Source of the DNA: Microbotryum silenes-acaulis
Lineage: Eukaryota; Basidiomycota; Microbotryomycetes; Microbotryales; Microbotryaceae
NCBI GenBank assembly: GCA_003665825.1
Contig: QPFY01000003.1
Span: 62,001 to 126,000, forward strand
Length of the DNA stretch: 64,000 nucleotides
Direction: 5' to 3'
Below the pieces are notes generated by a model. It saw only the letters and a list, made by a program, of their open reading frames with translations. It did not search any database and was not told where the DNA came from. The position numbers and the translations under genes are program-made. Of the stretch, positions 1 to 62,437 are shown piece by piece (position 1 is the first letter of the stretch; each line of letters begins with the position of its first letter).

Positions 1-898
1 CGACCTGAAACCATGCGGGGCTCCGCGGGCATGCCGGTCCGGATCCGATGCCTGACAAGATGGATCGCCCCTAGTATGAAATAGGTGCGAGCGCCTCAGA
101 CTCTCACAAACTCCCAGAACTGCGTCTGTCGAGACTTTGCACCAGTGCGAAACTGCGGGCCTTCGGAAGCATCCGAGTCGGCACGACAATGCGCCGCGCG
201 CATGCAGTCAGCTTGCGGTGGTCAGGGCAGCGGCGACATCATTGCGCCGCTTCAGATCGCGGAGTCACGATCAACGACCTTCGCCGAGGGAACAATGCGT
301 CGGAGATTCCGAACTCGAATGACCATGAAACGACCAGTCATTGGTCAATTGTGGGCTCAGGAGTTCGTCCCAAGGTGAGGTATACATTCAGGTATCTGTA
401 AAAGGGACACCGACCTAATGTCATCAGGTACTTACCTACTAGTATTGATGGCCGAAGCTTTAGCATGGCAGACCCCGTCAGGTCGACACGCAGGAGTGGG
501 GGTTTTATGTGGTGTAGCTACGGCTCCAGGCCGCAATACAGAGGACTCGTGACTCTGTATGGATTTAAGGTCCATTTTGACCCACTCTGCCCTGATCATT
601 ATGGCGTGGCCTTTCGAGTCCCGTTTGGATACGCTGATTGGGGCGGCCTAACAGTGCATGAGTTTGGTGTGTTTAGGTTACGGTGGTCGTACTTAGCCTG
701 AGTGGAACCACACTGAATTCAAATTAAGTCCGGTGGGAATCTCGCTAATCTATTTTTTGCACGTACCTCGACTGCCTCCTCGCTCCGCTCGTTGCCAGCC
801 GAGGTACGCGCAAAAATTCAAAATTTTCGCCGGCCCGGAGGCCCCTTCACTTGAAAATCGCTTATCGTTCTCAGCTTCTACTGGCTAGTTCAATCCTT
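1..898 (+). repeat. Left arm of outer inverted repeat (runs off left edge)
   Basis: Positions 1-444 are the reverse complement of 18,816-19,259 (position p pairs with 19,260-p); I found no mismatch by eye, and all three shadow reading frames are identical between the arms. Pairing resumes at 817 and continues to about 898 against 18,805-18,724, but with several substitutions and an indel. A 372-bp stretch (445-816) is present only in this arm. The repeat reaches base 1, so its outer end lies outside the window. The right arm covers most of the upstream region of the MFS transporter, so this arm is a second copy of that upstream sequence placed before the BNR_4 gene. Confidence 0.93.
445..816. 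other. 372-bp segment present only in the left outer-repeat arm
   Basis: Where the left arm has these 372 bp, the right arm has 10 bp (18,806-18,815, GTAGACACGA on the corresponding strand). The segment ends with a hairpin: 753-770 and 800-816 are near-complementary (CGTACCTCG against CGAGGTACG, flanked by T-run and A-run). It is either an insertion in the left copy or a deletion in the right copy. A 78-codon reading frame at 465-701 has no recognisable product. Confidence 0.6.
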
Positions 899-1278
899 CA
901 ACCTCATGTTTCGATCTTTTGACTTGCTCCTGTTGTCGAGAACCAGCTTTTAGGCCAAAAGCCAAAGTGTTCAGGGGAATCTACAGGTGCAGGCTGTCGC
1001 GTCGCGGCTGCCGAGTCCGTCGCAAAGACACCCCGAAGAAACGCGCGCTAGTCCCGCGCTCCCACCTCTCGGACACCGGACCCGTTCGCTCCGATTCGAC
1101 CTGATCGTCTTCCCGGTATCTGGTCAATGCCTGCCGAACTAGGGCTCGCTCACTTCTACCATCCCCCATCAGCGATCTGCGAATGAGCATATTCTCGACA
1201 TGGTCGACAAGGTTAAAATACTTCGGGACGCGGGCACGACAACGTTAGGCAGCTCGCCCGTCGCCCGTCGCTCGCTGT
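899..1278. other. Upstream region and unresolved 5' exon(s) of the BNR_4 gene
   Basis: No independent gene is recognised. The N-terminus of the BNR_4 protein should lie here: the first firm coding sequence starts near 1,279 after a possible acceptor (TGTCAG), and an ATG at 1,199 is one candidate start that would need an intron to reach that frame. Confidence 0.4.
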
Positions 1279-1656
1279 CAGCTGAACGGCGGTGCGTTCG
1301 TGCAAGACTGCCTCGTCACCCGCCGAGGTGAGTTGCACCGAATGGATGCATAGAGGCAGTGAAAACCGAACGTCCACTGATGAAGACTACGCGTTCTCGG
1401 GACCCTTGAGTAGGCTGGCAGTATGCCGCGTTCTACCTTGACAACCGACCCGGTGTTCGTCATGTCTACCTCGCGCGACGACAGCTCCCTTCCGGTGCTT
1501 GGGATACTATCATATTCACGGACTACGACCAGACCGAGGACGATGGACACAGTACGTCCTGGTCACAGATCCTCGCTGCCTGACCCGGCCCGAGCTCACG
1601 TCGTCACGTGACCGTCCAGACGTCATCTCGCTCGGCATCTGCGCAGCCGACGGATC

Positions 1657-1661
1657 AATCC
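1657..1661. other. Target-site duplication, left copy (AATCC)
   Basis: AATCC directly precedes the TGTAAGG end of the element. The same five bases in the same orientation follow its other end at 11,636-11,640. Keeping a single copy restores the BNR_4 codon series ATC CAC TTG. Confidence 0.9.
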
Positions 1662-2043
1662 TGTAAGGCTCGGCAGCCAATCAGTAGGTCCAAGCTCAAA
1701 CCTCGGACCGACGGACCGACTTGCCTGACCTCCCTTTCATTTCCCTGCCTCTGACTGACAACCATTGTGCATCCCTTTGTCATCCTTCCCTATTTTCCTA
1801 GTTCACCACAAAGAACCACATTGTCTAGTTAGCTCCCTTTCACAACGCCAGATTCCTTAAATAGTGATCCATAGCTCTCTTCTCTCTTTTCCTCTTTTCT
1901 CATCCTTTACGGGACCCTCACTCTTGACACACTTGACAATCGACTGGTTTTGGGACTGTCCATTCGTCAAGCACCTCGAGAGAACTACCGAGGAACCCGC
2001 CTTTACTTACGCCTACCGCTGAGTAATCTGGGCTCCTTACATC
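1662..2043 (+). repeat. Left terminal inverted repeat (382 bp)
   Basis: Reverse complement of 11,254-11,635 with one difference seen (GCACCTCG here, GCACTTCG in the other arm). The repeat itself is bounded by TGTAAGG at 1,662 and CCTTACA ending at 2,041, so each arm looks like a small LTR or solo element with its own inverted ends. Confidence 0.95.
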
Positions 2044-2224
2044 GTGCGAGAAGTTGGTCCATCGTGAGTGCCTTGGACATTGTCTCTGGCTGCTCTCCTT
2101 GTTGACTCTTGTCAACAACTTCAATGATAGGCTGCTTTCCCTTATCACCGGTATCAGACGTCTGGGCGTCTCTTGCGCGTAAATCTTCGTTGTCCATGGG
2201 ACTCATATCGATTGCAATCTTCAA
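2003..2224 (-). other. Short open frame beside left TIR, product unknown
   Basis: A 73-codon frame starts at 2,224 and runs into the TIR. Its first ~60 residues are hydrophilic and protein-like (MSPMDNEDLRARD near the start, LTMDQLLARC later); the last ~10 are read from the TIR. It could be a third small gene or the 5' fragment of an older gene (gag-like in feel only). No splice or homology support beyond composition. Confidence 0.25.
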
Positions 2225-2891
2225 AACTTTTCGGCGACCAGCGCTTCAAGTTCTCGGGTGCACGAGGTAGCTACACGCCCAAGTCCTTTCCGCGGGATTT
2301 TCCCGCGAGATTGCTTGAGCGCAGGCGGATCGCGGGATATTCAGGACCTTGACAGAGTGGTGTCTCAGGCGGGAGACTCCCCCGTCTGTATACCAGCCGG
2401 GTGACGACCTGGGAATCCCGTGGAGACCTTTAGGAGTGCAGGTACCAGGCTTTGCTTGCGGTTCCATTCTCGCGTTATCATATACTACATTTATAGCACC
2501 ACTTTATCCCTTTGAGAGCGTACAGTGAAAGCATTAGAAAGCCTTACAGGATCTATCTCGGCAGGGAGCACCCCCTACTAAAATCACTATAAAAAGCCCC
2601 TTATCCACATTAGAATCAGGAATGAACAAATGAAAACCGAAAAGGCTGAAACTTTGGACCCAATGAAGCAGTCCTGTAGGCCTTCTGGTACCTAACTCAA
2701 TTACCTGAGCAAGTACCTAGGGGATCAGATTGGAAGGGTGCCATTTAGGTGAGGTCAGGCCAGCTGCCTCCCGTGTTACCAATTCGAAACTATCTCGGGC
2801 TCACCTCAGGTCCACAATCTCAAATCATGAGCACTCCCGCGCTAATCCGCTCTGGATGCTGTCGATTGCGACTTCTGATTAGTCTGAACAA
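2225..2891. other. Element interior without recognised gene
   Basis: Between the left TIR-side open frame and the end of the unknown element gene. A GC-rich stretch (about 2,260-2,470) is followed by AT-rich sequence. No coding exon, tRNA-like primer site or reverse-transcriptase motif seen. Confidence 0.4.
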
Positions 2892-5096
2892 TCAAGTCAT
2901 CGAACACGGCAAGCGCGCGAAGGTCCGATCAGCGTGACGAAACTGAGAATAGGTGAGCACAGGCTGAGGACCAAATGCAGTGCCAGTGCCAGCCTTGACT
3001 GACCTTTGCAGCTTGATAAATGTCGAGAGTGGTCTTAGCAACAAGTAGGAACATTTGCGACTGGGCATCGTCCTTCGTAGTCTGCAATCGCGCGAGAGGC
3101 TGCTTCCAGTCCTTGGAGTCTTTGGCGGTGCCGAACTTCGAGGCAGCGGCCGAGCGGCGAGTCGGCTCGACGTACTTGGTCCAAAGGTAACTGAAGGAGG
3201 GCAGCACGTTGGATAGATGTCAGTACGTCAGTGCGCGTCATAATTGGATATTCTGTCGCACTCAGGAGGTTGAAGGCGGAATGGAGAGGAGTCCGAGACA
3301 GGTAGTCAACGAAAATAGGCTACGTACGTCCGAATGCTGAAATTTGGCTCTTTGTCCAGCTTGGCTCCAAGCCTCTTCCCGACTTTAACGAGGTAGTTTT
3401 GCAGACCAATGAAGAATTTAGAGCGGGTTCCCTTGTCTTCCTTTTCCCAGTCAAGAGCAAATTGTATCTGTGGCGTGTATACTTGTGTTAGCGAACTTCC
3501 CCACGTCCCTGCGCTCGTCGACATGATCCCCGAAACTCTAAAACTCACGGCCAGGCACCAATGGATGACATGATCGCCCGTCAAATATGCTTCGGTTGAC
3601 GGCCACTCCTTCATAACAAGCAGAGGATCCTTACTGAGGGATATGATATCTTGAATCTGGGGTGGACAGAAGATGATTGTAAGCGAGATGCAAAGCATGC
3701 AATGGCGAGTTCGGCACAGATGCACTCGAAGGTGGCCGAGCAGGGAGTCTCACGTACACGCCCGGCAAATTCCCTTCGCGCGTCAGCCACAACCTCTACG
3801 ATCGCCGCAGCGACCACTTTACGATACCCATCGTCGTGTTCATCTCTGCCGCTGTCGATAATTTGATTTGCAAGCAGGTACTTCTGTGGGTATTGCTTGT
3901 CAAACATTCAGACCCGAGAACCAAGGAAACACAAACCTCATGGCTGTGAAGCCGAGCATGGTTGTGAAGCTGACTCACTTTGAGAACCTCCGTTGCCCCG
4001 TTATAGAAGTTGGTGAGGCGAGGCGTACTCAGCATGGTCTTCGCATGTGATCTGAACTTTGACTGTGATAAGGAGGAACTTCATTTCCAGTTAGAAAACT
4101 TCGACGCATGAGGATTGGCGCCAAACACAGGAGTAGCGGCTTTCTACACCCTACAACGAACCTTGAAATCTCTGGCAGTGAGGGCAGCCACGGGTCGGCG
4201 CATCTGATCATGGACCATGATGAGCATGTTCATCATCATTTCGCCCTGAAGCCGGCGCTTGAGGGGATTCCCTCCCTGTCTTCCAAGCTGTAGTCAACAG
4301 AGCACATGTAAGACGTTGAATTGTACCTCTAACATAGAGGTGCTGTACTCACACGGGCATATTCGATCATGTAGTCCGTGCATTGGAGGCCTCGCGACTG
4401 GAGATCTTTTTTGATGACCGCGGTAGTAAAGGTACCCCCTTGGGTGTTCTCATCGTCGGAGACCTCGTCCTCCTCATCTCCACTTTCGAGAATAGTCGGT
4501 GCTATACTTGTGTCACGGGACCTCTCTCCGCCGGCTCCTGGGCTCACCGAACGTCGACCGGGTGCGGAGCTCACGGAAGAGCCCCTGTACGGGAGAAACG
4601 AGCGCTCCTCGTGCTCCGGCGCATCTTCATCCCCCGCAATCGCATTTGACAAGTCTCGACAACGGCGAGTGGGCGGGTACAGTGGTAGATTTTCCGCCGA
4701 TCTGTCTTCTGTTGTGGGGAGGGGTTTTGCTCCACTGCACGTGTACAAAGGAGCCTGTGTCAATCGTTGAAGTTGAACGAACAGCCCCGACCCCTATAAA
4801 CAAAGCCCCGTTCCGCCGAGAGAGGACGTACCTGTCGGTTTGGTTCATCCGCGGAGGTGACTCTAACCGTAGACTCGGTGTTACTATTTGAGGAAAGAAC
4901 TTGACACCGAGACACTGGGGAGGGAGTATTTGCGGGACTGGACAATACGCCCCCCGTCATCTGCGGGTTCGAAGTGCAGAGTTGAAGGATCCGGTCATTG
5001 GCCGCACGTAAAGGTCTGCTCGCTCTCCGCCAGCCGTACTACTATGATCGGATTCACGGAACTCACCCCCTGTTGCTGTATGGGAGTTGCGGACAT
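2892..5096 (-). CDS. Unknown protein encoded by the transposon (multi-exon)
   Basis: Function not recognised. Start at 5,096 gives a 30-nt first exon (MSATPIQQQG), then an exon at 4,832-4,960 and one from 4,754 to about 4,354. The N-terminal third is Ser/Pro-rich with an acidic patch (ESGDEEDEVSDDE). Further exons give KKDLQSRGLQCTDYMIEYAR, GEMMMNMLIMVHDQMRRPV, FRSHAKTMLSTPRLTNFYNG, LLANQIIDSGRDEHDDGY, STEAYLTGDHVIHW and YLWTKYVEPTRRS, a mainly helical body. The tentative stop is at 2,892-2,894. It lies in the same orientation as, and about 500 bp downstream of, the transposase-like gene, so an accessory role in transposition is a reasonable guess. CACTA-type elements also carry two genes, but no similarity to their second protein was recognised. 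Confidence 0.6.
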
Positions 5097-5604
5097 GGAG
5101 GTGAACACAGCGTGACGAAGAGAGAGAGAGGGGAGGGGGGAGGTTGCTGACTCGAAGTCAATGAATGGGCACAAGGTAAACAAAGCAAAGGCAAACAACG
5201 CAAAACTCAGTGAAAGGTCGGGTTATCCTGTCTGACTACGCGACTCCGATCACCTCCGATCGCGCATCTCAACATTCCTGAGCAATCGGTCCGAAGGCAT
5301 TGGCTTCGCGCCGGCCAAAGCCCGACGTGACGACCATATCATGGGCACCTTCAGTGGGGCAATACGTGGGTATTTCGAACCGGCGCGGCCAATGGGAATT
5401 AATCTACTATTTTGGACACTTTTGAAGATCCCGCAGCGACTGAACGATAGAGGCTCTACCCAACGACTGATAGTTTGCTAATCTGTACAATGCGCTGTCA
5501 TAAAAAGTGGGCAGCTTGAAATTCTCGAGCTGAACGCCGGCCATGTACGCTCAAATGGAGTGCAGAAAGTCAACGCGAATGGCAATTTCAGACGCTTCAG
5601 ATCT
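5097..5604. other. Spacer between the two transposon genes
   Basis: About 500 bp between the end of the transposase-like gene and the start of the unknown gene, both on the - strand. It should hold the promoter of the downstream gene. A purine-rich GAGAGAGAGG run lies at about 5,118-5,142. Nothing else recognised. Confidence 0.4.
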
Positions 5605-8600
5605 TCATCTCTTACTTCGCTTTCGGTTCGCCTTCAAATCGCAAGGTTCCGGATCCGAAACATAGCCTTCCGACGAAGACTGAATGCCAAGCCGCGATGG
5701 AGGAGTCCGAATCAGCTTGAGCTCGCGCTTTGCCCCACCCAGTGCGGGTAGAGCTGTAAGAGATAGAAGCGAGTGTACGTATATTTGCACTCATCATCGA
5801 TCTCATCCTCCCCGAACCCGCGTTACTCGTTGAGTGGGCGCGTTCTGAATCCACATCTTGCGTATCACTTTCCGACTCGGTGTTCCCAGCTGATTGCTTG
5901 CGTTCGAACGTCTCACCCTGCGGTTCCTCGCGCGGGGACTCCTCCTGCTGCGACTCTCCATCCTATGTAAAAGCATTAGAGCCTGACAAGCCTCTCCGCA
6001 AAATCGCCGCGTTTCTTGACGTTGACAGAGGCCATTCAACTTGAAGTGACTCACGAATTCATCGGGCTGCCACTGGGACTGGCTCCTTTGGTCTTCGCTG
6101 TCGCTGTCGGTTTCTGCAACGCTTGGAAGCTGATAATTGAGGAGGTACATGTTAGCGCGAGCAGTCCCATTGACTGGGCAGACAAGTAGAGGCATACGAT
6201 CCCTACCCTGGGTCGGCCACGACGCGCCACGTTGGGGCCCACCGCATTGCGCGTCTGAGCTGAAGGTTGCGATAGCCGGACTTTTTGTACGAAGCTGTCC
6301 AAATCTTCCGCGGCTGGAATTGGGGGCGCAAGCGGGACAACCAAGTCGTGCGATCGCTGGGTGATGGTACTCAGCAGCCAATTACGGTCGTCCCTATGGG
6401 TCAAGGCATTCTCGAGTCCGCCTGTGTCGATGCGCTCAATGCGAGCCTTTTTTGAGGCCGAGACGCGCAGTTCGCTGATGCGCAGTCATGCTGTACACTG
6501 GCAACTCCAAGCAAACACTGTAGACGGGACAGAAATATTTTTGTGAGCTGATAGTGCAACAGCTTTGCCTCCTCTATGCGCTGACTTACCTTCGTTGACA
6601 CTACAGAGGGGTGAGGCTCGAGAGACAGTCGGACGAAGCCAGTCGAACCGAGTTCTTCGCCGAGGCGGGCGAATTCTTCAAGCGCGAACCCCTCGTCGAT
6701 CAGGCTGCTTTGAAGCGTGCGACCGGTAGTCAGCACTAGCAGGGATACGACTCGGCCGATACGGAGTCCTGACTGATAGCATAACAGATAGGGCACCATT
6801 TAGTTACCCCAAGGATGGTGTCAAAGAGCGTACGGCAGGACTCACATTGGGTGAAGTGCGCACAAAGCACCAATGTCGAAGCAGGTACCGATCACCATTC
6901 GGAAGTGTGGCGGCCTTGGCCGCGCGAAAGTGGTCATACGCGGAGACCGACCCTTTCGCCTTGAGGTGCGGTAGATAGGATCGTGTTCGAGCTCCGACGA
7001 CGATTGCACTTGTTGAGAACGATGATAGTCAAAGCGGACTAGTGCCGGGGAACGGCGGTCAGAACGGTACCCGAGTCAGCTTCGATGAACAGTGGCACAT
7101 CAGCATCGTATGGCACCAAGAAAAATATGCACTCACTCCGATTCTGCGTCTCGGAATCCTCATCGACCATGAACCAAGACCTGATCACCGCGTTGTCCAT
7201 TAGACTCGCTGCCGCAGGACCGAGCGAGACAGCCCGGCCACCATGACGCCAAAGACCCCCACCCGCGACAAAGGTGAGCGCGGCTGTCTCCGCTAAAGTC
7301 TGCGCCACGTCACGCGATGGAGCTTGATGGTTGGTGCGCATATTGACTTGGCGCACGACCTTGTTTGCAGACTCGGCCACCGACGAATCGAAGAGCTTAG
7401 GAGGTCCGAAGCGGCGAATGGCCCCTTGAAGCTCGAGAAGGTAGTGGTACTTGACGCGAGCCAAGGTGAATGTCAAATTGCGGGTCATCGAAGCTTGGAC
7501 AAATACTCGCGCTAGCTCGCGATAGTCGTCCTGTGCACGGAAAAGTTTCCTTTAGTCTCGAGATAGCTGGCCTCATCATTCGACGGATAACGAGCCAACT
7601 CACGGCGTACTGATCAATACTTGTTGCGGAGGGAGCGAACATGTGATGGGTCAACTTTCCAAGGGCACTCCAGCAACGATTAGTCACTGGAGTGATCATG
7701 GACCGGCTCAACATGACCTCAGCGATGAAGGGAAGTATCTGCGCGATCATTCGATAATCGTGACCATCGAGGCCTCCCTTGTAGTCGACGTAGAAATTAG
7801 GCTTGAATCGTTCACCGAGCCCAGCTGTCGAAAGCGAACGGAAAGCGCCGCGCATGAAGTCGGCGGCTGTGGGTGTAAGGCCCGCCATTGTGTCAACCCA
7901 AAGATATTTGACAGGACCTAGCAGAAGAACGTGGAGCATGTCAGGAGGTGTGTCACGGTGGACGTCGAAATCTGCGGGGCGAGCTTGAACTGTCAGATGC
8001 GTTCCAAGCCGTGCAAGCACCGTCAACTCATTGACTTACGAGGAATGCGGAAGAATGGGCCAAGAACGGACCCAGAGGCTTTGAGTTCGGACAGCCGAGC
8101 CGAAGCGGCTGCCCGTGCTCGAACTCCGTTGGCGGTGGCAATCTTTTTTCGTTCCTTGGCGCCGGCATTGTTGTACGCTCTCGCCAACCCGGCATTTGGC
8201 TGAGGCAGGCCATCTTTGCTGTGAGGGACCTTGTGTGTCATCTCGACTGCATAGGCTTGGCGGATTTCTTCAATGACTTTTGCGGTGACTTTGTCGCGGG
8301 TGCCTGTGCTCCTTTGCAACTCCTGAACCCCGTGAGCGGTGCCGTCACGAGTCATCGTCTCGATCTGCGCCCATGATCCCAACATCGTTCTGTCCGCGTT
8401 ACGTTTGATGGGTGACTGCAGAATTCCAGCTCCGAGTTGTCAGCCATTTGCATGACGCACGAAGCTAACGCGGTCAAGGCTTGACTCACAGTAAAGTAAG
8501 TCATTAGGGTGTCGAACGTCAGTCGGTCGGCGGGAGATCCGCCCCATCGACAGCAGCGGCAGGGGAAGCGTGCTGCGGCCCCAATTGGACGGGCAGAGAC

Positions 8601-9935
8601 TTCGGCAGCCATCGGTGTGTCGTGTACCGTGTATAGCAGTGGCGTCCAAAACTGTACAGGGGCTCCGGTACGACCATCAATGGCCTCAACGGGCGATGAA
8701 AGCGTGGCACTAGAGTTTGTTGCATGAGTCAGCCAAAATTCGCCGGCTGGCTCGACACAGTCACATCACACGCACATAATGTCCGTAAACACAGCCTCCG
8801 CTAGATCGAGTGCCTCTCCCCAAGCGGTCACAGCGATGTGTTGAAGCGAGAATCGGCGGCTTAACTGCGAAGCCGGCAAACCCAGAGTCTGGATCGAGCA
8901 CTGTTGCATGCGCCGGGGGCGAATCAGTACAGTGTAATCTCCCACATGGGTGTTTGGGAGTGAGTCTGCACTGACCACGAACATCTTGTAGTAACGCTTC
9001 GACTCCCCACCGCCAAAATCATCCAAGAACATCCGCAGCGGGACAGTCAGAAGTCGTCCGCCTCGGGCTGCGGCTCTCGAGGCACTCGACGCCGGCAAAC
9101 AGGGTAGCAGCACCTCTCGATCTGCAGACAGTCCTGCGTGCGCAAAGTGGCCGTGTCAGGCGTGGCGAAATGTTCGGACTTGTCTCATGCACTTACGTAT
9201 GATCCTCCTCCTCTCCAGCTCCACTTCCCTTGCGATCGGAGGCCCGAGCAACTCCAACGGCATTAGGGACCACGCCCGGTCTGAAAGTGGCGACGACGAT
9301 AAGTCCGGCATATCCGCGGGCGGGAGTTGAACGCAGAAGCTACCATCGTCGCGGAGGACCGCAGGAACCGCCAGTGCGCAGAGTACGTGGTTGTGGGTGG
9401 AGTCGATAAAGAGGTATCCTCCACCTCTTTGAAGTACGACTTCCTGGGCGAAATAGTCGATGCCGTCATGCGAAGCCATCGGTGTTCAAATGGGTGCCGG
9501 TAATGTGTGGCGCCAGCGCGCAGTTTGACAGGCCGATTGCACAAAATCTTTGTCGTCATAGGAGGGGTAGAACTCTAATTGCTCGACGAGTGTGGGGGTA
9601 GCCAGCGCCTGCGGGCATATAAGAGAGCGTGCGTCAGCGGGGGGCACTGGCTGGGGGCACTGGACGCGGAGTCAGAGTGAGTGCCACTGGGAACGCACTG
9701 CAATGACAAAATCAGATGGAGGAATGACGAAGATTGTGCGGTTGTTAGGAATGACAACTGGCCGGGGATGGAACAGCTGGATTTCGTCGAGTAGGTTGCA
9801 TAGGAAGGTTTTGATGGTTTTGATCGAAGGCAGCTTGGTCACGCCGAGGACTTGTGCAAACTCGAGTATTTCTTGGAACTCTTGCGCGCCCATGCGACGG
9901 TGGGGTGATCGCCAGAAGAGAGAGACCACGCACAT
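5605..9935 (-). pseudogene. Transposase-like protein of a basidiomycete repeat family, with in-frame stop
   Basis: Conserved blocks in order along the - strand: a helical N-terminal block with TKLPSIKTIKTF (9,672-9,935), LEFYPSYDD and CQTARWRHTL (about 9,490-9,600), MASHDGIDYF, VPLRMFLDDFGGGESKRYYK, RFPCRCC, STGTRDKVTAKVIEEI, DVHRDTPPDMLHVLLLGPVK, GLDGHDYRMIAQILPF, IRRFGPPKLFDSS, TNHQAPSRDVAQ, SVQHDC, and a Ser/acidic tail ending in RKRSKR (stop about 5,605). I know this series from a large family of repeat-associated proteins of Agaricomycetes; I would place it near the CMC/Plavaka-type transposases but am not sure. Introns are short (9,134-9,196 is 63 nt). A TGA at 9,486-9,488 interrupts the frame between ARWRHTLPAPI and TPMASHDG; CGA to TGA would explain it. 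Exons upstream of 9,935, up to about 10,450, are unresolved. Confidence 0.7.
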
Positions 9936-11253
9936 CTGTGGCCAAGAATTCGCAGACCAGAGTCAGCATTAGTTACTAAGCTGAGAGGGCTTCGGCGCTC
10001 GGGTCACGACCACTCACAGCCGCGTAGTCTCAACACTGGAAGACCTCCGCTCGCTCACAGAAGAGATAGAATTGTTGGTTTCGAATAAAAGGTCGTCACT
10101 GTCGGGGGATGATACCCAGCTAAGATCCCCAACACCGATACCTTGCAGTTGGACTTGTTCTTTGTGCACATTCGTCTTGAAATGGGCCCGGGCTTGGGCA
10201 AGGCTCAGCCGTCGATCCTTATGTCGAGGGCAGACTGCGCAGCGGTATCCGATGCTCCCGGAAGAATTTGTTATGCTGATGATTGCTTCTGTGGTAGAGA
10301 AGGCAGCGAAGGATCGAAGGTTGAGCCACAGTCAGTGCGTCGAGAATGCGCGGCGCGTGCGACCACAGGCATCATGAGCAACCTGATTTCTCTACAAGAT
10401 CATCGAAGAAGCGTTGATCCGAATCCAGCCTCTCGGATACTGGCATAGTGCGTAAGTAAGTTGTACGCCGTAAGGGTCGATTGAAATGGGTAACACAAGG
10501 CCAAAAGGCGGGGCGCGGCTTTCTAATCTTTCTAATAAGGCGAATCGTCTCGGTGACTCTCCGGAGCAATTGCAAGATAGCCCCTCCGCGTGAGCGCTGA
10601 ACGCGGAGTCACGCGCTCACACTGCCGAGTCCTGCGTCTGCAGTGCTGACGCGTCGCGTACCTGGCCAAAGATCAACTTGTTTACATTTTAAATGCTGGA
10701 CTGTGTAACGATGAATGTTGCACCGTCTCAGTATTTTCCTCGGATTACTAGTCATGAAGCCAATCATTCCAGCTTTTTTTTACTTTCGTCATACACTCAG
10801 ATGGAGCAGACCACTTGATGGGCAAAGCCAATCAATCCCCCCCGGGATGTCGTTTTCGTGATCAGGTCATTCACCCAGACCAAAGCGTCTGATCCCCAGC
10901 AGCTCATGATCCCCCTCGAGTTCTCGCGGGGGCCTCAGGTGAAACCCACCTGGGAACTTCGTGATTAAGCCAATCTGGCCGCAGCTCATCGGCGCGCCTG
11001 GGAATCCCGCGCCGCAGGGTTGGGCGTGTAGGCTCGTCACAAATAAAGGGTAGGGAGGGTGGGTCTGTCCCTCTCCAAAAAGTTACAGAAGCTGAATCCG
11101 AAGGATTACAAGCTCTAGTGAAGGCAATACAGGATCGTATGCACTGGAACGGCTGACACACAAAGTGTTGGCACGGAAAAGCAATACACAAGGTAATGCT
11201 TCGAATACGAAATTCGGCAATCCAAAGGTTTGTCAGTTTGGATGTCAAAAAAA
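9936..11253. other. Element interior: 5' end and promoter of the transposase-like gene
   Basis: Expected to hold the unresolved N-terminal exon(s) of the transposase-like gene (about 9,936-10,450) and its promoter. From about 10,600 to the right TIR there is no recognisable coding sequence. Confidence 0.35.
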
Positions 11254-11635
11254 GATGTAAGGAGCCCAGATTACTCAGCGGTAGGCGTAAGTAAAGGCGG
11301 GTTCCTCGGTAGTTCTCTCGAAGTGCTTGACGAATGGACAGTCCCAAAACCAGTCGATTGTCAAGTGTGTCAAGAGTGAGGGTCCCGTAAAGGATGAGAA
11401 AAGAGGAAAAGAGAGAAGAGAGCTATGGATCACTATTTAAGGAATCTGGCGTTGTGAAAGGGAGCTAACTAGACAATGTGGTTCTTTGTGGTGAACTAGG
11501 AAAATAGGGAAGGATGACAAAGGGATGCACAATGGTTGTCAGTCAGAGGCAGGGAAATGAAAGGGAGGTCAGGCAAGTCGGTCCGTCGGTCCGAGGTTTG
11601 AGCTTGGACCTACTGATTGGCTGCCGAGCCTTACA
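11254..11635 (-). repeat. Right terminal inverted repeat (382 bp)
   Basis: Inverted copy of 1,662-2,043, ending CCTTACA at 11,635, immediately followed by AATCC. The TIR is open in the BNR_4 reading frame, so an apparent ORF starting at 11,514 fuses TIR sequence to the BNR_4 C-terminal part; this is accidental. Confidence 0.95.
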
Positions 11636-11640
11636 AATCC
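11636..11640. other. Target-site duplication, right copy (AATCC)
   Basis: Matches 1,657-1,661 in orientation and sequence; together they mark the insertion site within the Ile codon of the BNR_4 motif GSIHLSFD. Confidence 0.9.
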
Positions 11641-13257
11641 ACTTGTCTTTCGATGCCCACGACACCCCGCTGCACTATCGCCACTCGCTAGTTGATCTGA
11701 CGACTGATGCAGCGAACTCTCACTGGCGAACTGAATCCTTTTCGAAAGTACTCGACTGCTTACCCGGCTTAGAGCATCTTTCCAAAGCCGAATATTTCAA
11801 GGCAAGTCTCAGCCGGGTTCCCGCACTTGCGCTGTACCAGATTTTTACCGTGATCTATGTGCTTCCACAGGTATTGACGTATCCTCGCTTTCTTTCAGTG
11901 AGGGAGCCACCTGGTGCGCTTGTATTCGAGTACCGCATCGGCATTTCTGGTCAGCGCCGGCTAGCGAGTCAACTTCGCGACTATGGCTCTGACTCATGTG
12001 CACCATTGCTCGATTTTGCAGGGCTCGGCAGTGATTTATTGTGCGTGTATTCGGGGAATGTCGATGACGAAGGCTCATGGCGGCATCGAGGGGTGTATCT
12101 GCAAGGCGTGCAAAATAATACGTGCGTCTCAACAACTTATGAGACACTTTTTTGCTCCCCTGCACGGCAAGCTGACGCGTGACTCTCAATTGGGAAGGTA
12201 CATCAACGGGGTTGATGCGGACGCCAACGGGGCTTTGCATGTTTCTTGGACCTACCGATACTACGTTCCTGTCACTCTCGAGCAGTCTCGTCAGCAAGCG
12301 GGACCTAACGGGCCAGAAAACGTGAGTCAAGCCTCGAACGCGGTCGGGAGGCCCCTAGCATGCTATCGGCTTGCTTCACCCATTCTGAATACGCATCAAA
12401 ATCTGTCGGTAGAACCACGATTTGTGCTACGCATACTCTCCCCCGGAAGAGGACGGAACCGGCCCTGGGTTGCGGTGGTATGCTTCGGACGGTCACCCAA
12501 TCGGAATCTCCAGCTCGAGTCCGATCTTGCCATCGACCGAGGGAATTCTGGCGTTCGATATACCAAAGTACTCGGGTGATTCCCATTCAAATGTTCGGGA
12601 AGAACGCCTCAATATTTTGCTTATCCTACGCTTTCGTTGTTTCGTTGCTGCTTGATAGGCATTCTCAATCAGGAAGCCCAGTGCGTTACACCACGAGGCG
12701 GCTTTCATGCTCTTAATCGCGAGCTTGTCCGAGGGCTCGAAACCTGGTGCATATCCTTACCTCCCGGTTCGCCCATAAAGATTATTTGCGTTCCGCTGAC
12801 ACCCTATCGGATCCTGTTCAGGTTCGTCTACTCGCTCATTGACGGTGAATGGACAAAAGAGCCTTTACCGATTCTGCCACCGTCGCCGACGTCCGCTCGT
12901 GGGAAGATCCTAGTCTCCAGAAAGAGCGAACGCCTTCTGGCTCTGCTCCCGCTTGCCCAAGATCTACTCATCCTGACCAAAACTGTTCACCGAGGTTGAG
13001 AAAAGTCCCTCGTTATTCCCGATGCTGGGGGTGAGAAAGGAATGGAGGTACTCTACGATGTGAGTATCATAGGGTGACTCGCTCGTGCGTGTTTACAGGT
13101 GCTATTCTAACGATCACCCTTGGCCTCCTATTCCATTCAGCGCAATCGCCTCGCTGCCGATGACGGCGTGCTTTCTCTCTTTTTAGGAATATACGATCAA
13201 GAGAGTGGCCAAGCAACCATCAAGGTTGTTGATCTTGAACTAGACTGTGACTACTGA

Positions 13258-61167: not shown

Positions 61168-62437
61168 TCACGCGTGAATCCTAGCCAATGTTTTCTCAAA
61201 ACCTTCTTCCCCTTGCCAAAACTTCTTCTCCAACCTGATCCTCCACTCCTTGACCGCCTTCTTCTCGTCCCAAATTTCCTCGCACAACTTGGGCACCGCG
61301 ACGCGCATCATCATGTACCTTCCGTAAGCGACATAATCGACGAAACCCGGCTGGTCCTTTGATGCGAGGTATGAGTGTCCCCGGTCGGTCAAGAGCGCTT
61401 CGAGCGGGAGGAGCGAAGCTTTGGCGCGGGAAACGAGGGTCTCTTGAGGGGTGGAGGTGAGGAACTTCCATCCGTCCTTCATGCCGAGCTTAGCATCGGA
61501 TTTGAACCAGCCTCGTTCCTATGAGGGCGCACGACGGTCAAGTTGACGGGAAGGAAAGGATGAATCGCGGGCAGCGGTGAGCGCTTGAAAATTCGGCAAT
61601 ATAAAACTCGTTCAGGTCACTCACGGTATTCGTGTCCTCCGCATCACCGGGATGCAAAGCCGCCAAAGGCTCGGCCGAGATTTCAAAGAACGTTGACCAT
61701 TGCGCATCCGACGATCCGAACCCGCTCGAAAAGACGAACGCGTACGCCTTGGCGACGTCCATCTCGGGAGAATCCAGTTGCACCGGGTTCGGTGACGAGG
61801 GCAGGAACAGCGAGGGTGCATCGGGGTAGTTGATGTCGAGCCATCTATTCTCGGAATGGCGCGATAGTTCGTGTAAGTCTCGTGTACGTTTTGTGTCTTA
61901 GATTTCGCGAGATACGTCGGGGTTTCGGTTGCTTAACTCGGCGATCTTCCAGCTATCCGAAATGAGCTCGCCCGAGGGGAGTTCAATAGTCGGCGCTGCA
62001 CGCCCCATCGCAAGGTGACAACACACTATTGTAAGAACATCACATTTCCACGGCCATAGTACGCTCTCCGACGAGCTTTCAGCCCTGAAACTCACAGAGA
62101 ATCCTGTCCTTGCCATGCTTCTTGGCCAGCGCCTTGAGGTCGGCCATCGTGACCGGCTGAGTCACAAAGTCTACGCCCTTGTGTAACAGCGACAAACGCG
62201 TCTTCCAAGGGTTGGGTGCCCAGAAGGGACCATCTATGTCACGAGAGCAGTATGTGGTGGTTAGAACATTGGTGTGGTTCCCGAGACGATCCGGATGAGT
62301 CAACTCCGACGAAAGTGCCGAGCACGTCCCGCTGTCCCAAAGTCCGGACAACGTTCTTCGTCTATAGTACCGAGGCAGAAGAAAAGGGATCCCTCACCAG
62401 GTTCGAGGTAAAGGTCATACAGAATGATCGGCGCCAT
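61168..62437 (-). CDS. Glutathione S-transferase-like protein
   Basis: Start at 62,437 (MAPIILYDLYLEPG). The N-terminal thioredoxin-fold part spans three exons: DGPFWAPNPWKTRLSLLHKG, VDFVTQPVTMADLKALAKKH, then APTIELPSGELISDSWKIAE, matching the beta-etherase/UstS-like GST group of fungi (ILYD....SPN.WK.R..L..K). The C-terminal helical part includes YAFVFSSGFGSSDAQWSTFF, LVSRAKASLLPLEALL, KDQPGFVDYVAYGRYMMMRV and FWQGEEGFEKTLARIHA; stop at 61,168-61,170. The pattern of five to six exons is supported by clean joins. Substrate is unknown; aromatic ether cleavage or detoxification are family possibilities. Confidence 0.82.

Follow-up and report, generated by a model that had tools for sequence, protein, structure and literature searches.

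A BNR_4 gene of Microbotryum silenes-acaulis split by a probable retrotransposon derivative with inverted long terminal repeats and a nested DNA transposon

The split BNR_4 gene and its insert

The window analyzed here, a stretch of 64,000 nucleotides from contig QPFY01000003.1 of Microbotryum silenes-acaulis (positions 62,001 to 126,000, forward strand), contains a BNR_4 gene that is split by an insert of 9,974 bp. In the initial annotation, this insert was described as a large DNA transposon with terminal inverted repeats (TIRs). The underlying observation is sound but the label is wrong: the insert is an aberrant retrotransposon insertion with inverted long terminal repeats (LTRs) and a nested DNA transposon. 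The insert occupies positions 1662-11635 of the window, between the two copies of a 5-bp target duplication:

1200..1661, plus strand: 5' part of the split BNR_4 gene, exons, approximate
1657..1661, strand not applicable: AATCC, left copy of the target duplication, 5 bp
11636..11640, strand not applicable: AATCC, right copy of the target duplication, 5 bp
11641..13060, plus strand: 3' part of the split BNR_4 gene, exons, approximate, based on a Pfam match and on relatives

The junctions described there, AATCC followed by TGTAAGG on the left and CCTTACA followed by AATCC on the right, are present at exactly these coordinates, and no BNR_4 target sequence has been lost at the insertion site. Joining the flanks with a single AATCC yields a frame that reads ...SLGICAADGSI and continues across the joint with HLSFDAHDTPLHYRHS. 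Two relatives in which the site is intact, P0003 from Microbotryum saponariae (468 aa) and P0004 from M. intermedium (452 aa), read through this position without interruption as GHNVISLGIC(A/D)ADGSIHFSFDAHDTPLHYRHS. The claimed restoration of the frame upon removal of the insert and one AATCC is borne out. The HNVISLGI motif cited in support of it is found in these relatives and in the split gene, but in the latter it is readable only after removal of a 68-bp intron (approximately 1552-1619, read from the sequence). The right half of the gene matches BNR_4 (PF15892) in Pfam with an E-value of 7.9e-9 and is the single match in a genome search for this family, which, like the other genome-wide searches reported here, covers one genome; the left part alone is unmatched in that search. 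The closest named protein matches come from Microbotryum, with M. saponariae as the nearest named relative. The right part contains an in-frame stop that is absent from both relatives compared.

From the outer ends to position 382, the arms of the insert pair base for base except for a single mismatch at arm position 314. An independent search for inverted repeats recovered the same arms (382 nt, 9,210 nt apart). A chance origin of such an inverted match with a duplication at both outer ends is excluded. The data support the view that the BNR_4 gene was split by a recent insertion that has exact ends and a 5-bp duplication; the step from one mismatch to a recent date is sound in kind, because LTR arms made from one cDNA start out identical.

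The locus is surrounded by an inverted segmental duplication (window 1-444 and 18816 to approximately 22230; C3:59000-62444 and C3:80816 onward), with 99.93% identity over 2,945 bp and a total length of about 3.4 kb when the less similar end is included (96% over the last 0.7 kb searched).

The arms as LTRs and the inner DNA transposon

A genome search with the arm sequence produced 45 matches, among them solo LTR units of 366-410 bp that start with TGTAAGG and end with TTACA. As LTRs, the arms of the window copy are 380 bp each, bounded by TGTAAGG..CCTTACA, and differ at one position of 380. Twelve units have both outer ends, namely the window element, the sister copy L031, eight solo LTRs and two interrupted solo LTRs, when truncated, same-unit, duplicated-DNA and fold-back matches and those without a clear far end are left out. 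All 12 start with TG and end with CA, and the target duplication is complete in nine (5/5), matches at four of the five positions in two and at three of five in one. Arm copies without 5-bp duplications, which the initial annotation had named as evidence against its claim, were looked for: most units do carry the duplication, but it marks LTR insertions, not a TIR element. The two arms in the window lack duplications of their own, and only the whole unit 1662-11635 is bordered by one. An LTR-end match on C2 was rejected as a member of the family, the LTR match being only 16 bp long and attributable to chance.

The identity of the family is seen in L031, a copy flanked on either side by CAGCG. 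Its two direct LTRs (403 bp each, differing by 2 mismatches) enclose gag, protease, reverse transcriptase (RT)-RNase H and integrase (IN), in this order and in one frame with two interrupting stops. The coding pieces of L031, searched separately against Pfam, match Asp_protease_2 at the cut-off and RVT_1, RNase H and H2C2 above it; the matches to gag, zinc knuckle, rve and SH3_Tf2-1 (integrase end) are below the cut-off. The gag-pol frames of L031 give the true orientation of the LTR, which in sense reads TGTAAGG[C/T]TCGG...CTCCTTACA, followed by TCTTTTTTTGACATCC and then gag. The opposite orientation, in which a poly-A tract would be the polypurine tract, is rejected by the same frames. The TG..CA LTRs with 5-bp target duplications and, in L031, the gag-protease-RT-RNase H-IN order between direct LTRs are those of Ty3/Gypsy elements. 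The window copy differs in that its LTRs are inverted, its outer ends are two U3 ends, and only the leader and the 5' part of gag lie inside. The inverted LTRs, in place of a direct pair, therefore make it an aberrant derivative and not a standard Ty3/Gypsy member. Its components are:

1662..2041, sense on the plus strand: inverted LTR, 380 bp, with the U3 end TGTAAGGCTCGG as outer end
2042..2044: fold-back junction at which LTR plus TC meets antisense gag, with a microhomology of 2 bp; a single occurrence in the genome
2044..2273, minus strand: 5' part of gag, cut off at 2044 by the inverted LTR
11031..11255, minus strand: retrotransposon leader, starting with TCTTTTTTTGACATCC beside the LTR, on the expected primer-binding side
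11256..11635, minus strand: retrotransposon 5' LTR of 380 bp, its outer end likewise a U3 end

On the minus strand, the order is LTR (11635-11256), leader and 5' gag (11255-11031 and 2273-2044) and inverted LTR (2041-1662). Because the second LTR is inverted, both outer ends are U3 ends. These parts and their order are directly observed, as are the target duplication and the LTR nature and identity of the arms; the same applies to the nesting of a second element within the leader and gag part. This second element comprises:

2272..2273: left TA target duplication, based on the empty sites in L046 and L031
2274..11028, coding exons on the minus strand: inner DNA transposon, 8,755 bp, CACGCCCAA..TTGGGCGTG
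2932..5038, minus strand: second set of open frames, no Pfam match, open also in copy L056
6400..10331, minus strand: transposase coding exons, approximate, manual reading
11029..11030: right TA target duplication

In the search with the interior of the insert, the segments 2044-2274 and 11033-11253 adjoin each other elsewhere, and the stretch between them is also present at loci that lack the arms. The inner transposon has empty sites at eight places (L031, L033 twice, L034-L037 and L046), which are not all independent given that those in L033 and L034 have common flanking DNA. The boundaries 2274-11028 are fixed by these empty sites together with the copies outside the arms. Of six copies with both ends, five have TA on both sides, in each case within CTAG; L057 lacks the left TA.

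Several of the loci with empty sites have features of their own. L046 (C8:247445-247829), the closest empty site, is a leader and gag fragment that starts at the LTR-leader boundary or within one base of it and has no LTRs and no visible duplication. L033 and L034 (C11:38000-46500 and C39) contain 5' LTRs of the sister family with a common upstream flank, present twice, head to head, on C11 and once on C39; this layout identifies a duplicated, inverted stretch. L035, L036 and L037 (C27, and C17 twice) contain leader and gag of the window type, 94-97% identical, with upstream sequence that does not resemble the LTR of the window and may belong to a different LTR or to a rearranged end.

The transposase gene in the window lacks 446 bp at 10021-10024 compared with L055, L056, L057 and L062, and 4 bp are common to both sides of the break. 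At the same point, L058 has 464 bp extra and L060 and L061 are further rearranged. Two relatives of the transposase, P0001 (86% identity) and P0002 (41%), both from Microbotryum, were found among 7,995 scored candidates, and a profile search retrieved no protein but its own member P0001 among the candidates scored; both searches scored only the candidates with the most words in common (7,995 and 7,993, respectively). When 20 window stretches (19 of the inner element, one of BNR_4) were compared with Pfam, the inner element gave only two matches, both far below the cut-off (E 0.47 and 0.14). The manual exon model of the transposase matched no Pfam family at E 0.1, the Plavaka domain included. 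A likeness to Plavaka in the motifs is not supported: the Plavaka transposase domain (Pfam 18759), by which Plavaka elements are recognized in PMC8290104, does not match. Of the C(2)C and H(3-4)H motifs of the CMCT transposase core, only a candidate cysteine pair, C553 and C556, can be made out, conserved between two proteins; the predicted structure, with a mean pLDDT (predicted local distance difference test) of 28.8, is uninformative.

These observations bear directly on the TIR transposon of the initial annotation, in which one large DNA element bounded by TIRs of 382 bp would be mobilized by the enclosed transposase. The inverted arms, the exact duplication and the transposase-like exons within the insert all agree with such an element. 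The repeats, however, are not confined to inverted pairs around the transposase: the arms are found solo and in direct pairs around gag-pol. The transposase belongs to a separate element, with copies outside the arms, its own termini and TA duplications, and existing empty sites. A single transposon also requires that 1662-11635 moves as a whole, and the left junction of the window element occurs once in the genome in a search that allowed up to 3 mismatches. This explanation is extremely improbable. By contrast, two nested elements, an aberrant insertion of the Ty3/Gypsy type with inverted LTRs and a subsequently inserted inner DNA transposon that targets TA, are the likely explanation of the locus.

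Fold-back LTRs and the origin of the inverted arrangement

Related arrangements are present elsewhere in the genome. The junction LTR-TCTTTTTTT-GACAGTCCC is found at four places (L039-L042), all of them exact in a search that allowed up to 3 mismatches (control: 0). Two of the four are one segmental duplication, and two LTR subfamilies are represented. At L039, CAGTG stands in both flanks and the arms are identical at 234 of 235 bases; as both arms are of a shortened 361-bp LTR variant, they were derived from a single template. The LTR subfamily of L039 is not that of L040/L042 (the two are 92-94% identical, with 50 columns of gaps), which argues for separate events at the same GACA microhomology. 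The GACA tail can pair with TGTC at positions 117, 161 and 296 of the window LTR, and position 296 fits the observed junction. In addition, L043 is a hairpin of about 40 bp at a 3' LTR, and L047 is a diverged possible fold-back with a similar layout.

The LTR end followed by TC has 25 matches in total. The eight exact ones comprise five fold-back or inverted junctions, two normal 5' LTR-leader junctions and one solo LTR; beyond these and three one-mismatch matches, the remaining 14, mostly solo LTR ends and partly inspected, were left out. The ratio of fold-back to normal LTR-leader junctions is 5 to 2 among the exact matches, 5 to 5 with the one-mismatch matches added, and 4 to 3 when duplicates are merged.

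The arrangement in the window probably originated by aberrant reverse transcription, a mechanism inferred from its parts. The growing 3' end of the plus strand would have run through U3-R-U5, the leader and some of gag before turning; it would then have snapped back, or switched, onto an LTR plus strand, which it would have copied as far as the 5' (U3) end. The resulting linear DNA with two U3 ends would have been inserted by the integrase, for which it should be usable because the LTR's own ends have TGTAAGG..CCTTACA in common. Under this scenario, the cDNA of LTR, leader, first part of gag and inverted LTR entered BNR_4 whole, producing the AATCC duplication, and the TA-targeting DNA transposon (2274-11028) later entered the gag and leader part. 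The shorter fold-backs L039-L042 are compatible with plus-strand strong-stop DNA snapping back 13 nt beyond the LTR. A more general proposition, for which we consider the chances to be about even, is that snap-back of plus-strand cDNA repeatedly makes integration-competent, palindromic U3-U3 LTR elements in this fungus, their frequency being close to that of the normal type in the set of LTR-leader junctions identified for this family.

Several observations weigh against this account. The second arm of L039 lacks the last 45 bp, which is odd if the integrase needs the tip, and in each of L040, L041 and L042 most of one arm is missing and no duplication can be seen. L040 and L041 are one segmental duplication, with 1,506 and 970 bp identical around the junction, and L042 runs on into retrotransposon pol sequence. 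The three one-mismatch matches to the LTR end plus TC (C11 twice and C39, with common flanks) are normal as well, and the count of eight favors fold-backs partly through exact-only matching. At the window junction, gag and the LTR-leader boundary have a microhomology of just 2 bp. No TGG, as in a tRNA-type primer-binding site, is seen beside the LTR, where TCTTTTTTTGACATCC is located, and the strong-stop end is accordingly assumed. Furthermore, the structures are read from the assembled sequence of one genome.

The same data bear on three other explanations. The fold-back LTRs might constitute an old non-autonomous palindromic family, with the window element as a relative and not a fresh accident of reverse transcription. 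The same junction at three unlinked loci and the diverged possible member L047 are compatible with such a family, against which stand the different LTR subfamilies at these loci, the near-identity of the L039 arms to each other and the window junction, which is different and found once; a family of this kind appears rather unlikely. Alternatively, the locus could have begun as a normal direct-LTR retrotransposon, or as two neighbouring ones, with recombination or gene conversion subsequently turning the left LTR around. Rearrangement after insertion is common in retrotransposons, and L042 and L043 are complexly rearranged; nevertheless, a single duplication lies at the two U3 ends, no target sequence is missing at the site, the arms differ at one position of 380, and the similar fold-back in L039 has its own duplication, all of which makes a later inversion unlikely. 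Finally, the location of the insert between the arms of the recent inverted segmental duplication of about 3.4 kb could point to an assembly artefact at an inverted repeat. An assembly error would not be expected to produce the target duplication, the unique inner junctions or the related fold-backs elsewhere, and is very improbable here.

Relation to known systems and implications

Among the described systems, a parallel to the proposed aberrant insertion is template switching, from which complex LTR elements arise that integrate with 5-bp duplications (Sabot and Schulman 2007, PMC1950507). The features in common are aberrant reverse transcription, a single integration, a 5-bp duplication and near-identical outer LTRs. 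The insertions described there differ in that two elements are fused and a third LTR lies internally, and the string "invert" does not occur in the text. The tyrosine-recombinase retrotransposons of the DIRS-1 type, a different class, resemble the window element in having retroelement sequence between inverted LTRs (PMC5633606). In contrast, the sister copies analyzed here have direct LTRs, integrase and 5-bp duplications, and no tyrosine recombinase is seen in L031. In the portions of the literature examined, "inverted LTR" refers to DIRS-1 or to yeast LTR pairs involved in chromosome rearrangement. No account of inverted-LTR insertions of the kind found in the window was identified in the accessible portions of the open-licence literature, which does not imply their absence from print.

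The inner element can be compared with the CMCT transposons, which include EnSpm, Plavaka and ESTA, the last with TA duplications (Kojima 2025, PMC12730594). The CMCT transposons are delimited by CA..TG ends and target duplications of 2-5 bp; the inner element has CAC..GTG ends and the 2-bp TA duplication described above, and a candidate CxxC pair is conserved in its relatives. It differs from them in the lack of a Pfam match and in having only the two Microbotryum relatives among the candidates scored. For Microbotryum, two papers report an expansion of Gypsy-like elements (PMC5381629) and an abundance of Copia and Ty3 elements, with copies longer than 10 kb likely to be nested (PMC10502011).

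Altogether, a derivative of an LTR retrotransposon with a nested insertion can mimic a textbook large TIR transposon, the exact target duplication included, and annotation based on ends and duplication alone therefore misclassifies such elements. If the snap-back scenario is true, the integrase would accept two U3 ends in nature, and there would be a route from LTR retrotransposons to fold-back elements that resemble TIR transposons or miniature inverted-repeat transposable elements (MITEs).

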